Made by a program: the position numbers and the translations under genes | Notes under the pieces: generated by a model | Databases searched by the model: none | Told to the model about the DNA's origin: nothing | What the model saw: only the letters and a program-made list of their open reading frames with translations | Shown here: in pieces, positions 23,982 to 29,167 of the stretch | Layout: each line of letters starts with the position of its first letter | Numbering within the stretch: the stretch's first letter is position 1 | Assembly: GCA_001789205.1 (NCBI GenBank) | Contig: MFYT01000050.1 | Location: forward strand, 1-48,006 | DNA: 48,006 nt | Direction: 5' to 3' | From: Candidatus Raymondbacteria bacterium RIFOXYA2_FULL_49_16 | GTDB lineage: Bacteria > Fibrobacterota > OXYB2-FULL-49-7 > XYB2-FULL-49-35

Positions 23982-25790
23982 ATGATTTCCAACCATCAGG
24001 AACGGCTAAAACTCTTGCCGCAGCTGCCCGGCATATACCAGTTTTTGGAAAAAGGGATCATTATCTATGTAGGAAAAGCCAGGGTCCTGCGCGACAGAGT
24101 CAGATCGTATTTTACCCCTTCAAATAGCGACCTGAAGGTGCAAGCCATGGTCTCGCGCGCCGATGATGTTGAGTGGATCGTCACTGGATCGGAAATTGAA
24201 GCGCTTATTCTCGAAAATACCCTGATAAAGAAGCACCGGCCCCGCTACAATATAGACCTCAAGGATGATAAACGATATCCCTATCTTCATGTCACGCTCA
24301 ACGAGCCCTTCCCGCGCATCGAAGTTGTGCGTTCGCTAGCAAAAAGAGGGGGGCGCTACTTTGGTCCCTATGTCGATACGGCAAGCATGCGGCGGGTGCT
24401 TAAAATGGCCGAGGAGGTCTTTCATCTGCGTACATGCGCCAAGGCGCTTCCGCTGAACAAACCCGGCAGGCCGTGCATCAATTTCCAGATGGGAAAATGC
24501 CTGGGACTCTGTTCCGGGGTTGTCATCGGCGAACAGTACCGGCAACAGGTTGACCAGGCCCTTCTTTTTCTCTCTGGAAAGAACAAGGCGCTGGTGAACG
24601 AGCTTGAGGACGCAATGGTGTGCGCATCAGGTGACCTCGAGTTTGAAAAAGCGGCTGGTCTGAGGGACGCCATTGCCGCCATTCGCTCGGTTATCCGCAA
24701 ACAACACATGGCTTTCAACGAAGCCATTGACCGGGACATCATTGCCGGCGCAATGCGCGGCAAAGACGCCTGCGTCACGCTTTTCATGGTCCGTGAAGGC
24801 GCGGTGACAGGACGTCACCATTATTTCATGAAAATAAGCGGCAATGAAAGCGACCCCGAGCTTTTTGAATCATTCATAGAAAACTATTACAAAAAGGAGC
24901 TCTATATCCCCGGTGAAATCTATGTCCAGTCTTTGCCGGCAAACAGCGACATGCTCAATCCATGGCTTTGCCATGAAGCAGGAAGGCCGGTTTCCATTGT
25001 CCAGCCCCAACGAGGCGAAAAGGTACGTCTCATGGAACTGGCGCGACAGAACGCCGAACTGCTCCTGCACGAGTTGTTCCTCAAACGGGACAAGTATGCT
25101 GCCAGGACAGCTCCTTCCGTGGAATTTCTGATGAAGGACCTTGGCCTTTCTCTTTTACCGTGGCGGATAGAAGCGTACGACATCTCCCATATACAGGGCA
25201 GCGACACCGTAGCCTCGCAAGTCACTTTTATCAACGGCAGACCTCAGAAGAGCGAATACCGACGGTATGCCATACGCAGCGCAGGCGGGTCAGACGATTA
25301 TGCGGCAATGAAAGAGGTGATTGAGCGGAGGCTTGCGCGGACCAGCGGCGATGCGTCAAAACTACCCGACCTTTTTCTCATTGACGGCGGCAAGGGCCAG
25401 CTCTCTTCAGCCGTTGGGGTGCTTGCGGGCCGCGGTCTCGAACACCGGCAGATAGTATCCCTCGCAAAGCGCCTTGAAGAGGTCTTTGTGCCGGGCAAAG
25501 AGGAGCCCATCGTCATCTCCCGGCGCTCGCCCGGACTCAGGCTCCTGCAGCGCATCAGGGACGAGGCGCACCGGTTTGCCGTGAGCTATCACCGGAACAA
25601 GAGGGCCAAACGCCTTTTGCACTCTGAACTCGATGCGCTTGCGGGCGTGGGGGAGAAACGAAAGGCGCTTCTGTTAAAAAAATTCGGATCTGTCGAAATG
25701 GTCAAGAGGCAGGACGCTGAAAGCCTGGCTGCCGCGGGGCTTCCGCGTACGCTTGCCGAGACGCTTGTCGCCTTGTTCCAGAGCGGTTAA
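23982..25790 (+). CDS. uvrC: UvrABC system protein C
   Basis: UvrC makes both cuts around a DNA lesion in nucleotide excision repair. The 602 residues include the N-terminal GIY-YIG nuclease (PGIYQFLEKGIIIYVGKA). A Cys-containing segment (TCAKALPLNKPGRPC) and a UvrB-contacting region (LEDAMVCASGDLEFEKAAGLRDAI) follow. The RNase-H-like nuclease has YDISHIQGSDTVAS and LFLIDGGKGQL, and a C-terminal helix-hairpin-helix (LDALAGVGEKRKALLL) closes it. No Shine-Dalgarno sequence precedes ATG 23982, and TATATTTTATCC upstream suggests a very short leader. The stop overlaps the converging htrA-like gene by four bases. Confidence 0.97.
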   Translation: MISNHQERLKLLPQLPGIYQFLEKGIIIYVGKARVLRDRVRSYFTPSNSDLKVQAMVSRADDVEWIVTGSEIEALILENTLIKKHRPRYNIDLKDDKRYPYLHVTLNEPFPRIEVVRSLAKRGGRYFGPYVDTASMRRVLKMAEEVFHLRTCAKALPLNKPGRPCINFQMGKCLGLCSGVVIGEQYRQQVDQALLFLSGKNKALVNELEDAMVCASGDLEFEKAAGLRDAIAAIRSVIRKQHMAFNEAIDRDIIAGAMRGKDACVTLFMVREGAVTGRHHYFMKISGNESDPELFESFIENYYKKELYIPGEIYVQSLPANSDMLNPWLCHEAGRPVSIVQPQRGEKVRLMELARQNAELLLHELFLKRDKYAARTAPSVEFLMKDLGLSLLPWRIEAYDISHIQGSDTVASQVTFINGRPQKSEYRRYAIRSAGGSDDYAAMKEVIERRLARTSGDASKLPDLFLIDGGKGQLSSAVGVLAGRGLEHRQIVSLAKRLEEVFVPGKEEPIVISRRSPGLRLLQRIRDEAHRFAVSYHRNKRAKRLLHSELDALAGVGEKRKALLLKKFGSVEMVKRQDAESLAAAGLPRTLAETLVALFQSG

Positions 25791-26878
25791 TTGTTCCGCG
25801 CGCCCATCACCGCTTTTATCGCAAGTTTTTTACCCTGTCTGAGGATTTTACATTCAACGGATTTATGCGGTGCGCTATGGGCGACCATGTTCCGCAGTTC
25901 GTGAATGGAATGGATATCCCTGCCATTGAACGCGAGAACAACATCCCCATTTTGCAGTCCGGCCTCTTCAGCGGGGGATTTTGGCTGAACGCGGGCGATC
26001 AGGGCGCCTTCCGCTGATTGCAGGTCAAGGGCGTTGGCAAGATCGGGATCAATGGCCTGGAGATCAACACCCAGCCATCCGCGACGCACATGTCCTGTTT
26101 TTATGATGGATTCGGCCACCCAGGCGATCAGGTTTGAAGGAATAGCAAATCCAATGCCAATGTTTTCCGAGTTTGGCGTTAGGATCAGGGTATTCATACC
26201 TATAAGTTGGCCATCAAGATCTATAAGCGCGCCACCGCTGTTGCCGGGATTAATAGGCGCATCGGTCTGGACATAATCAACATACAGGTCGGAAGTGAAT
26301 GTGGTGTGGCGTCCAACAGCACTCACAATGCCCGAAGTGACTGAATTTTGAAGGCCCATGGGACTGCCGATTGCAATGACCCATTGGCCCGTGTTCAGCG
26401 AGTCGGAATTTCCAATGGGAATGGGTTTTGTGGAAACGTCGATTTTGAGCACCGCGATATCCGTGAGCGAATCGATCCCGAGCACGCGCGCCGCGTATTC
26501 CTGCCTGTTTTCGAGCGCAACAGTGATGGTTTGGGCCGCTTTCACCACATGGGCATTAGTAGCTATATGGCCTTTCCGTGAAATGACAATTCCCGAACCG
26601 CTGCTTTGGGACTTAAGTTGGGCAGGAGAGCCAAATAGAGGCACCACTGTATCAGTACGTTCGGTTTTAATAAGTACTACCGATGGACTGAGCTTTTCAA
26701 CAATATACGAAGCAAGAAGACCCTGGGCGTCTTTTTTCCGCAGGACCTCAGGGGCCAGTTGGGCGCCGCCAAGGAAGCTGGTTTTTGGCAACCGGGGCAG
26801 GATATGGGATTGGAAAACAACAACCAGGCCAATACCGAGCACGAAGATAAACAAAGCCTTTTTATAGAGTGATCCCAT
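25787..26878 (-). CDS. HtrA/DegP-like trypsin-type serine protease with PDZ domain
   Basis: The 363-residue protein has an N-terminal membrane anchor at about 6-22. Its protease domain holds the triad His110 (TNAHVV), Asp140 (LTDIAVLKI) and Ser214 (GNSGGAL). One PDZ domain lies at about 265-350 (PAEEAGLQNGDVVLAFNG). One PDZ plus a membrane anchor is like DegS or two-component stress sensors more than soluble DegP. It should act on misfolded envelope proteins or in regulated proteolysis. It is the last gene of the tatC-tatA/folate-rlmB operon, starting six bases after the rlmB stop. Confidence 0.93.
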   Translation of the reverse strand: MGSLYKKALFIFVLGIGLVVVFQSHILPRLPKTSFLGGAQLAPEVLRKKDAQGLLASYIVEKLSPSVVLIKTERTDTVVPLFGSPAQLKSQSSGSGIVISRKGHIATNAHVVKAAQTITVALENRQEYAARVLGIDSLTDIAVLKIDVSTKPIPIGNSDSLNTGQWVIAIGSPMGLQNSVTSGIVSAVGRHTTFTSDLYVDYVQTDAPINPGNSGGALIDLDGQLIGMNTLILTPNSENIGIGFAIPSNLIAWVAESIIKTGHVRRGWLGVDLQAIDPDLANALDLQSAEGALIARVQPKSPAEEAGLQNGDVVLAFNGRDIHSIHELRNMVAHSAPHKSVECKILRQGKKLAIKAVMGARNN

Positions 26879-26884
26879 TGTGCA

Positions 26885-27652
26885 TCAGTCCTTGTGTTTA
26901 CGGGCCTTGCAGGCGCGCTGCCGCACTGCCTCAAAAATGACCACAGCCCCGGCCGCTGAAACGTTCAGGGAACCAATAGGGCCCTGTGAAGGAATATGGA
27001 CCACTTCGTCGAGGTTGCGCCTCACGTGGGGCCGTATGCCCACATTTTCCCCTCCGAGCACCAGGGCAATGGGACCCGAGAGATCAGCGTCATGGAGGCT
27101 GCGGCCTTGTCCTGATTCGCATCCCACAATCCGGATGCCCTGTTCCTTCAGCGACTTCAATGTAGCAGGCATGTCGTTTACCCGGGTAATGTCCATATAG
27201 GTGATTGCGCCCGCGGAGGCCTTTTCCGTCCCATAACTCAGACCTGCCGCTCCTGTACGAGGCAGAATGATCCCATGCATACCAGCGCACAGCGCGGTAC
27301 GTACGAGCGCGCCCAGGTTTTGCGGGTCTTCGACGCCCTCGGGAATAAGCAAGAAGGGGCTCTCCTTTTTTTCGTTAACAGCAATAAGAATTGTGTCAAG
27401 CGATGCGTATTCCTTTACCGAACAGCGCGCAAGAACGCCCTGGTGGTTGCCTTTGTATATCTTGTCCAGCTTGGCGTGAGGAACAAGGTTGACCGGTATT
27501 TTCCGTTGGCGGGCTATCTTTAGGATTTCAAAGAGCCGTTGGTTTTTCAGGTCGTTCTGAATAGTGACGCTTTCAAACGAGCGGCCTGCCACAAGGGCCT
27601 CGCGGACGGGATTTATTCCCGCTATAAGCTGAACGCTGTTTTCATTTTCCAT
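26885..27652 (-). CDS. rlmB: 23S rRNA (guanosine-2'-O)-methyltransferase RlmB, SpoU/TrmH family
   Basis: The 255 residues comprise an N-terminal RNA-binding part (LIAGINPVREALVAG) and a SPOUT methyltransferase. The knot motifs are visible: GVEDPQNLGALVRTA, ALVLGGENVGIRPHVR, and IPSQGPIGSLNVSAAGAVVIFE. RlmB methylates the ribose of a guanosine in 23S rRNA; other TrmH-type targets cannot be excluded from sequence. Its start overlaps the upstream fusion gene by 11 bases, so it belongs to the Tat-containing operon. Confidence 0.92.
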   Translation of the reverse strand: MENENSVQLIAGINPVREALVAGRSFESVTIQNDLKNQRLFEILKIARQRKIPVNLVPHAKLDKIYKGNHQGVLARCSVKEYASLDTILIAVNEKKESPFLLIPEGVEDPQNLGALVRTALCAGMHGIILPRTGAAGLSYGTEKASAGAITYMDITRVNDMPATLKSLKEQGIRIVGCESGQGRSLHDADLSGPIALVLGGENVGIRPHVRRNLDEVVHIPSQGPIGSLNVSAAGAVVIFEAVRQRACKARKHKD

Positions 27653-28427
27653 AGTTTGGGGCCTCTATTGTTTCAAGGGGTGAAAAGACGAGGTCCATGG
27701 GCACATCGTGCTCTTCCTTGGGAATGTAATATGCGTAAATCTGCTCATTGAATGCAATGCCCCAGAGCGGTTTTTTTCCTTCCAGGGGCGACAGGAAGCG
27801 GTCAAAATAGCCCATGCCGCGGCCCATCCGGGTACGGTTGCGGTCAAAGGAAACGCCTGGCACAATAAAGAGGTCTATGAGCAGCGGGGCCGAGGGAATG
27901 CGAAGCTTCTCGATTGGTTCGGGTATCTGGTAGGCGCCTGGCGCGCAATCAGCGTCAATGTCGCTGATATACGCCGCCCTCAATTCGCCGGTCTCCTTTA
28001 TGCAATAGGGAATACAGACTGATTTTCCCGCAGTAAGAGCGTTGCGTATCAGGGGCTGGGTATCGACCTCCTCGGGAAGGGACATGAAGCAGAAGAGCGT
28101 GCGCGCAGCTGCATAAGCAGGGTGCGAGGTGATTTTTACGGTTATCTCGGCGCTCTGCCGTGCGCGTTCCTCAATGCTCAATTCCTTGGCAAGGCGCAGA
28201 CAGTTTCTCCGGATGCTTTCACGTTCAGTTGTCCGGATCTTTTTCTCGTCGTGGGGAGGCTCGGTTATTGCCATGAGTTCCCTGGTGAATTCGTCCCGGT
28301 ATTTCTTGAGCGAACCGAACAGCTTTCCCAGGTCGCGCATGATACCCGAGACCCCCTTTGCACCGAAAAGAATAAGGACAAGGACTGTAACGAGAACAAT
28401 TTCCTGGAACCCGATACCGCTGTTCAT
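27642..28427 (-). CDS. TatA-like domain fused to 5-formyltetrahydrofolate cyclo-ligase
   Basis: Residues 1-50 form a TatA-type unit. It has a short periplasmic end, one membrane helix (VLVTVLVLILFGAKGV, about 11-26), then an amphipathic helix with the DLGKLFGSLKKYRDEF pattern. From about 65 the protein is a 5-formyl-THF cyclo-ligase, with RESIRRNCL and FMSLPEEVDTQP. Its nucleotide/substrate loop RMGRGMGYFDRFL lies at about 200-212. That enzyme turns 5-formyl-THF into methenyl-THF with ATP. The ATG overlaps the tatC stop, so this is also the operon's only TatA-like protein. An in-frame ATG at 28274 with AGGGA nearby could yield the folate enzyme alone. I do not know of this fusion as a standard architecture. 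Confidence 0.85.
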   Translation of the reverse strand: MNSGIGFQEIVLVTVLVLILFGAKGVSGIMRDLGKLFGSLKKYRDEFTRELMAITEPPHDEKKIRTTERESIRRNCLRLAKELSIEERARQSAEITVKITSHPAYAAARTLFCFMSLPEEVDTQPLIRNALTAGKSVCIPYCIKETGELRAAYISDIDADCAPGAYQIPEPIEKLRIPSAPLLIDLFIVPGVSFDRNRTRMGRGMGYFDRFLSPLEGKKPLWGIAFNEQIYAYYIPKEEHDVPMDLVFSPLETIEAPNYGK

Positions 28428-29167
28428 TTTTTTCTCCGCGCGCAGTAAGAGACGCCTATGCTGAGACCGTAGAGGACCAGAAGGGGGGCCGCCATGAGGG
28501 TCTGGCTGAAGACATCTGGTGGAGTGAGAATGGCGGAAATGATGAAAATGATCACGATTGCGTATTTATATTGGCGCACCAGAAAACCAGGAGTTATGAT
28601 CCCCAGCCGGGTGAGTATAAAAGAGAAAATGGGCATTTCAAAGACCAGCCCAAAGGCCAGGAGCAGCTTGACGATGAACCCGATATATATGTTGATTGAG
28701 AGCCGCGCGACAAGATCGACTGTGGAGAATTCAAGCAGGAAGTTAAAGGCCACGGGAAGCACCAGGAAATAGCAGAAGAGCACGCCGCCGACGAAGAAAA
28801 TCGTGGTGAAAAAAACAACCGGTACAATCAGGCGCTGTTCATCATGGAAAAGACCCGGCGCTATAAAGCGCCATACCTGGTAGAGGACAATGGGGATGGC
28901 GGAAAAAAGGCCGCCAAAGAGGGCTATCTTGATGCTGACCATAAAGGCTTCGGTCGGGTTGGTGTACATCAGTTCCGGAGGATGCTCGAGCCCGCTCAAG
29001 GGGTAGCCGGTGAATAGGGAGAGGATCTCTTTCCAGAAAAAATAGCAGGCGCTGCCGCAAACAAAAACGGCGATGACCGACTTAAGCAGCCTGAAACGGA
29101 GCTCGTCCAGGTGTTCGGCGAATGACATTTCCCTGCCGGTGACTTCTCCCATGGGATAAAGATACAT
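28424..29167 (-). CDS. tatC: Sec-independent protein translocase TatC
   Basis: TatC is the receptor for twin-arginine signal peptides in the inner membrane. The product is up to 247 residues with six membrane segments. The N-terminal SFAEHLDELRFRLLKS motif, the conserved FxSxxxP-like periplasmic loop region and FEMPIFSFILTRLG are present. The start is uncertain. ATG 29167 gives the longest form; ATG 29152 and ATG 29128 are also possible, and the last stands just behind CAGGGAA at the usual family start. It heads a minus-strand operon whose next gene supplies a TatA-like domain. No clear Tat substrate is in the window. Confidence 0.94.
   Translation of the reverse strand: MYLYPMGEVTGREMSFAEHLDELRFRLLKSVIAVFVCGSACYFFWKEILSLFTGYPLSGLEHPPELMYTNPTEAFMVSIKIALFGGLFSAIPIVLYQVWRFIAPGLFHDEQRLIVPVVFFTTIFFVGGVLFCYFLVLPVAFNFLLEFSTVDLVARLSINIYIGFIVKLLLAFGLVFEMPIFSFILTRLGIITPGFLVRQYKYAIVIIFIISAILTPPDVFSQTLMAAPLLVLYGLSIGVSYCARRKK

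Follow-up and report, generated by a model that had tools for sequence, protein, structure and literature searches.

The window analysed here, a stretch of 48,006 nucleotides that forms contig 50 of a 5.43-Mb genome in 112 contigs, carries a gene in which a domain of the TatA/B family is joined to the folate enzyme 5-formyltetrahydrofolate cyclo-ligase (MTHFS). Such a locus raises the question of whether the fusion is a genuine gene, which Tat subunit it supplies, and whether an enzyme tied to the translocon is a passenger or a regulator of export. Our preferred answer, to which we give a probability of about 0.7, is that the gene encodes an old, maintained bifunctional protein, TatB and MTHFS in one, in which the enzyme would be a tolerated passenger without a regulatory link to export.

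No earlier description of a TatB–MTHFS fusion was found in the literature searched, which left most subscription papers and domain-architecture databases outside its scope, and we regard the fusion as new on a provisional basis. In the figure legend of a survey of TatC proteins, an MTHFS gene is given among the genes of the tatC neighbourhood, and that legend entry does not mention a fusion (PMC3827258).

A Tat domain and a folate enzyme in one reading frame

The fusion is a single ATG-initiated open reading frame encoding 261 amino acids; the plus strand of the same interval is not open (Table 1). Both domains are recognized in this one frame: TatA_B_E (PF02416) at residues 5–50 with 26.4 bits (cut-off 21, E = 4e-6), and 5-FTHF_cyc-lig (PF01812) at residues 70–249 with 136.7 bits (cut-off 27, E = 1e-39). 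A first, sequence-only reading of this DNA had proposed a Tat domain fused to a complete cyclo-ligase, with an RMGRGMGYFDR loop and an overlap with tatC; the cyclo-ligase domain is complete, the loop lies at residues 200–210 of the fusion protein, the overlap is 4 nt, and the fusion itself proved genuine, both by its two Pfam domains and by its recurrence in the 46 genomes described below.

Table 1. Features of the fusion locus, numbered by position in the window
Feature	Position	Strand	Basis or remark
TatB–MTHFS fusion gene (TatB being the most likely assignment)	27642..28427	-	Open reading frame, Pfam, relatives, AlphaFold2 model
TatA/B-family domain, residues 1–55 (membrane helix and amphipathic helix)	28263..28427	-	PF02416, alignment, model
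Linker, residues 56–69	28221..28262	-	Gap between Pfam domains; pLDDT <50 at residues 56–58
5-formyltetrahydrofolate cyclo-ligase domain, residues 70–249	27681..28220	-	Pfam, Foldseek
In-frame ATG, codon 52	28272..28274	-	Not conserved; a weak AGGG precedes it by 5 nt
tatC	28424..29167	-	Pfam; overlaps the fusion by 4 nt
rlmB (23S rRNA 2'-O-methyltransferase)	26885..27652	-	Overlaps the 3' end of the fusion by 11 nt
Trypsin-like/PDZ protease gene	25787–26878		Follows rlmB at a distance of 6 nt

An AlphaFold2 model of the fusion has a mean pLDDT of 82.7. Confidence in the MTHFS domain is 76–97 per ten-residue block, the last residues excepted, and a Tat helix spanning residues 7–55 is modelled with pLDDT of 55–74. 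Purifying selection acts on both halves: in close pairs where dN/dS was computable (saturation affects some pairs, and the short linker does not allow a judgement), the ratio is 0.06–0.37 for the TatB part and 0.11–0.24 for the MTHFS part.

The fusion recurs in most families of Fibrobacterota

Searching 60 relatives gave full-length matches in many families, and a profile search of named genomes returned 14 full-length fusions, all from Fibrobacterota MAGs (Chitinispirillaceae, Chitinivibrionales and records named Fibrobacter or Fibrobacteres). Extending the search to 392 genomes, of which 168 are Fibrobacterota (the window's own included) and the remaining roughly 220 belong to other phyla, gave end-to-end profile matches in 35 genomes, every one from Fibrobacterota and one of them (G089) with an in-frame TAG. 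Reading of the loci confirmed shorter fused proteins in 11 further genomes of family f3 (hereafter, families, genera, genomes and loci are designated f, g, G and L, respectively). The fusion at L035 is identical to that of G045, which belongs to the window's phylum, and this match assigns the window to Fibrobacterota. In total, 46 of the 168 genomes of the phylum carry the fusion; they represent 11 of the 14 families seen, and every one of them possesses tatC. Among the matches listed, it was not found in the approximately 220 genomes of other phyla, and hits outside the phylum with N-terminal extensions (L051–L054 and L061) showed no Tat domain when their loci were read. In most families of this phylum, the Tat system would then have its TatB tied to a cytosolic folate enzyme, with a tatB gene that is easily overlooked, being hidden by the enzyme's name.

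This recurrence decides whether an assembly error or a missed stop created the reading frame, an explanation that now has next to no probability: among the 46 genomes are G032, whose assembly is one contig of 3.1 Mb, and MAGs that were deposited separately and come from several sources. The objection that a frameshift or missed stop joins two genes fails on the same evidence, with 35 genomes matching end to end and the 11 shorter proteins confirmed at their loci. We rejected the artefact explanation because relatives carry the same fusion, which is real and no accident of assembly.

Two irregularities were seen among these copies. The in-frame TAG of G089 (L093, G089:C54) falls at the conserved Tyr of the GKGFYDR loop and is probably a sequence error. 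In two genomes of genus g13, the fusion apparently begins at an ATC where ATG would be expected, preceded by a strong GGAGG (L013, approximately 2256 on the minus strand; L019, 1501 on the plus strand).

The Tat half is most likely TatB

The Tat-family helices that the sequence-only reading recognized at the N terminus are present, and the domain keeps E9, F21, G22 and K24, which are invariant in alignment A1. That reading named the domain TatA and took it for the probable working Tat subunit of the operon. The domain is complete and most likely a working subunit, but gene order, a separate TatA and the scores of relatives make TatB the likelier label.

Gene order places the fusion where TatB would be expected. 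Across relatives of many families, the commonest arrangement is tatA–tatC–fusion, often with 4-nt overlaps, and tatA still precedes tatC and the fusion in G001, a member of the window's own order. The window's genome no longer has tatA at this place: the fused Tat domain adjoins tatC, and a stand-alone TatA of 57 amino acids lies elsewhere (G000:C95:26870). The fusion and this stand-alone gene are the two TatA/B-family genes of the genome.

Ten sequences were scored against the NCBIfam models tatB (TIGR01410, cut-off 56.5 bits) and tatAE (TIGR01411, cut-off 53.9 bits): three proteins of TatA type and seven sequences from the TatB position, the latter comprising the domain of the window, two stand-alone peptides and four further fused domains. 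The TatA proteins from Fibrobacterota genomes score 60–71 bits as tatAE; the separate TatA of the window's genome, at 64.9 bits, passes the cut-off. For each of the six TatB-position sequences other than the window's, tatB is the better-scoring model, the tatAE match being weaker or not listed. Two of the relatives' fused domains reach 43.9 and 46.3 bits as tatB versus 24.0 and 25.4 as tatAE, and the stand-alone Fibrobacterota TatB peptides, at 41.6 and 44.3 bits, also stay below the tatB cut-off. The window's copy is reversed, with 37.1 bits as tatAE versus 31.2 as tatB, below both cut-offs.

This reversed score, together with an FG hinge typical of TatA, favours a domain that works as TatA, or as TatA and TatB both. 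We nevertheless consider that very unlikely, as a separate TatA above the tatAE cut-off is encoded in the same genome and as the tatA gene of relatives precedes tatC, leaving the fusion in the place of TatB. The unfused ortholog, at the corresponding site behind tatC, is a TatB of 53–54 amino acids. Orthology, gene position and a true TatA encoded elsewhere in the genome decide the assignment to TatB, the window's profile score being insufficient by itself. Like known TatB (TIGR01410, PF02416), the fused domain has a membrane helix, a hinge and an amphipathic helix and lies beside tatC, and its relatives score best as tatB; unlike TatB, it lacks the long cytoplasmic helical tail and carries the MTHFS enzyme there instead.

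Some loci depart from the common arrangement. At L008/L040 and L078 (G039), tatA adjoins the fusion and tatC is on another contig. Genera g3 and g18 of family f3 have a tatA–tatC pair with a divergent TatC (L083, L084 and L085), which in g18 is a second pair; no TatB was found after the pair at these three loci.

The enzyme half has the features of an active MTHFS

The MTHFS equivalog model TIGR02727 matches residues 70–249 with 142.9 bits, well above its cut-off of 84.9. In alignment A3, R73, E120, F194, D195, R200, G202, G204 and D209 are invariant, and in an alignment to solved MTHFS the position of human K10 is occupied by R69. Foldseek matches the model of the fusion to known enzymes of this family, with a TMt of 0.88 to MTHFS of B. 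anthracis (2jcb) and 0.86 to human MTHFS with ADP (3hy6). The window's domain thus has the conserved active-site residues, including the active-site loop, and the fold of the known enzymes; it differs from these soluble proteins in being anchored to the membrane through its N-terminal TatB domain, as we read it. The Fibrobacteraceae-type fusions of f3 lack the K..LR segment, which forms the first helix of MTHFS, and the activity of those copies is less sure for this reason.

Since the window's genome holds a single tatC and a single MTHFS, the fused one, the fusion protein probably serves the cell as TatB and MTHFS alike. Residues 1–55 would pair with TatC as the TatB subunit of the Tat receptor complex. 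The C-terminal domain, held at the cytoplasmic face of the membrane, would be an active enzyme and the cell's only one to convert 5-formyl-THF, with ATP, to 5,10-methenyl-THF.

One product is favoured over two

We infer that the gene yields a single, membrane-anchored bifunctional protein. A second, soluble MTHFS, made from the internal in-frame ATG or released by linker cleavage, is an unlikely addition to the full fusion. That ATG is codon 52, at the position given in the sequence-only reading; a weak AGGG precedes it by 5 nt, and the model shows poor order in the linker, both of which would suit two products. However, the codon-52 ATG of a same-order relative has no ribosome-binding site, and no start codon occurs between codons 41 and 95 at L005, L010, L015 and L041. 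As no conserved internal start was found in the linker among the relatives compared, and some relatives have none at all, the suggestion that the gene is an accident of fusion with an internal start loses its footing.

The fusion is probably old and has been split several times

Not all Fibrobacterota keep the halves together. The split is seen in f4, in two genera of f6 (g8 and g9) and in genus g32 of f3, where MTHFS is encoded elsewhere and the gene behind tatC, if one was found, codes for a bare TatB of about 53–54 amino acids. In the MTHFS tree, the enzymes of g8 and g9 and that of G037, a genome without tatC, nest within a fused clade (support 97/88), and the Fibrobacter-type and other stand-alone enzymes of f3 nest within a second (99/93). 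Several stand-alone MTHFS genes still adjoin rlmB (for example, in g15 and g3 of f3), and loss of the first MTHFS helix is common to the f3 fusions and the stand-alone enzymes of g3. This nesting, retained adjacency and common loss support an order of events in which the fusion came first and splits followed in several lineages.

Linkage of rlmB to MTHFS recurs across the phylum. The gene lies directly downstream of the fusion in the window and f3, 1.1–1.4 kb downstream in f8, and upstream in divergent orientation in many members of f6. The tree keeps two fused clades apart, one with the window's order, f5–f7, f9 and f10 (A) and the other with f8, f13, f14 and f3 (B), and a single fused clade is not rejected (AU p = 0.42). 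Common gene order and rlmB linkage favour one origin; two origins are possible. We propose that the fusion arose early in Fibrobacterota from operon neighbours in the order tatA–tatC–tatB–MTHFS, beside rlmB, and that it would have been kept because the cell needs both halves and neither is harmful to the other, with several splits since.

The enzyme is probably a passenger, not a regulator of export

Experiments in Escherichia coli bear on how a folded enzyme could be carried by TatB. When TatB is cut to about 50 residues, physiological substrates are still exported, and the membrane-extrinsic part has been assigned to folding quality control (PMC9436932). The truncation implies that the fusions keep the part used for transport, with MTHFS standing where the tail would be; an enzyme there would be tolerated because about the first 50 residues of TatB suffice for transport and the tail faces the cytoplasm. 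Related genera provide natural minimal TatB peptides of 53–54 residues, and the fused and split forms together amount to a natural experiment on the function of the TatB tail.

The same arrangement could be read as a functional link, in which MTHFS, tethered where E. coli TatB has its tail for folding quality control, would adjust export or the quality control of substrates through its bulk or through the state of folate or ATP. We think this quite unlikely. In favour of a link, the fusion is old, widespread in the phylum and always in genomes with tatC, the enzyme occupies the site of the E. coli quality-control tail (PMC9436932), and folate-related genes appear among tatC neighbours in the TatC survey (PMC3827258). 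Against a link, several lineages have split the gene into a bare TatB of 53–54 residues and an MTHFS elsewhere, and MTHFS is also joined to RNase D-like and MgsA/RarA-like AAA+ proteins, which indicates that it accepts unrelated partners. The link between one-carbon state and export offered in the sequence-only reading has no positive evidence, and the splits and unrelated partners speak against an obligatory one. It is similarly doubtful, at long odds, that in the Fibrobacterota Tat receptor a folate enzyme has replaced the quality-control tail of TatB and that the choice of folded proteins for export depends in part on the state of this enzyme or on the ligands it binds. In the passenger reading, which we prefer, it is probably genome history that keeps the halves joined, rather than regulation.

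The other MTHFS fusions lie in different lineages. Two open reading frames of 584 amino acids in g32 (L058, 1277–3031, and L055, 1094–2848) have MTHFS at their C terminus, and the N-terminal part of L058 is RNase D-like (Pfam DNA_pol_A_exo1 and HRDC). Outside the phylum, L052 (1086–3035) encodes MTHFS fused to an MgsA/RarA-like AAA+ ATPase in a protein of 649 amino acids. Both L058 and L052 resemble the window's fusion in carrying MTHFS C-terminally on an unrelated protein, and differ from it in that their partner is no membrane translocase.
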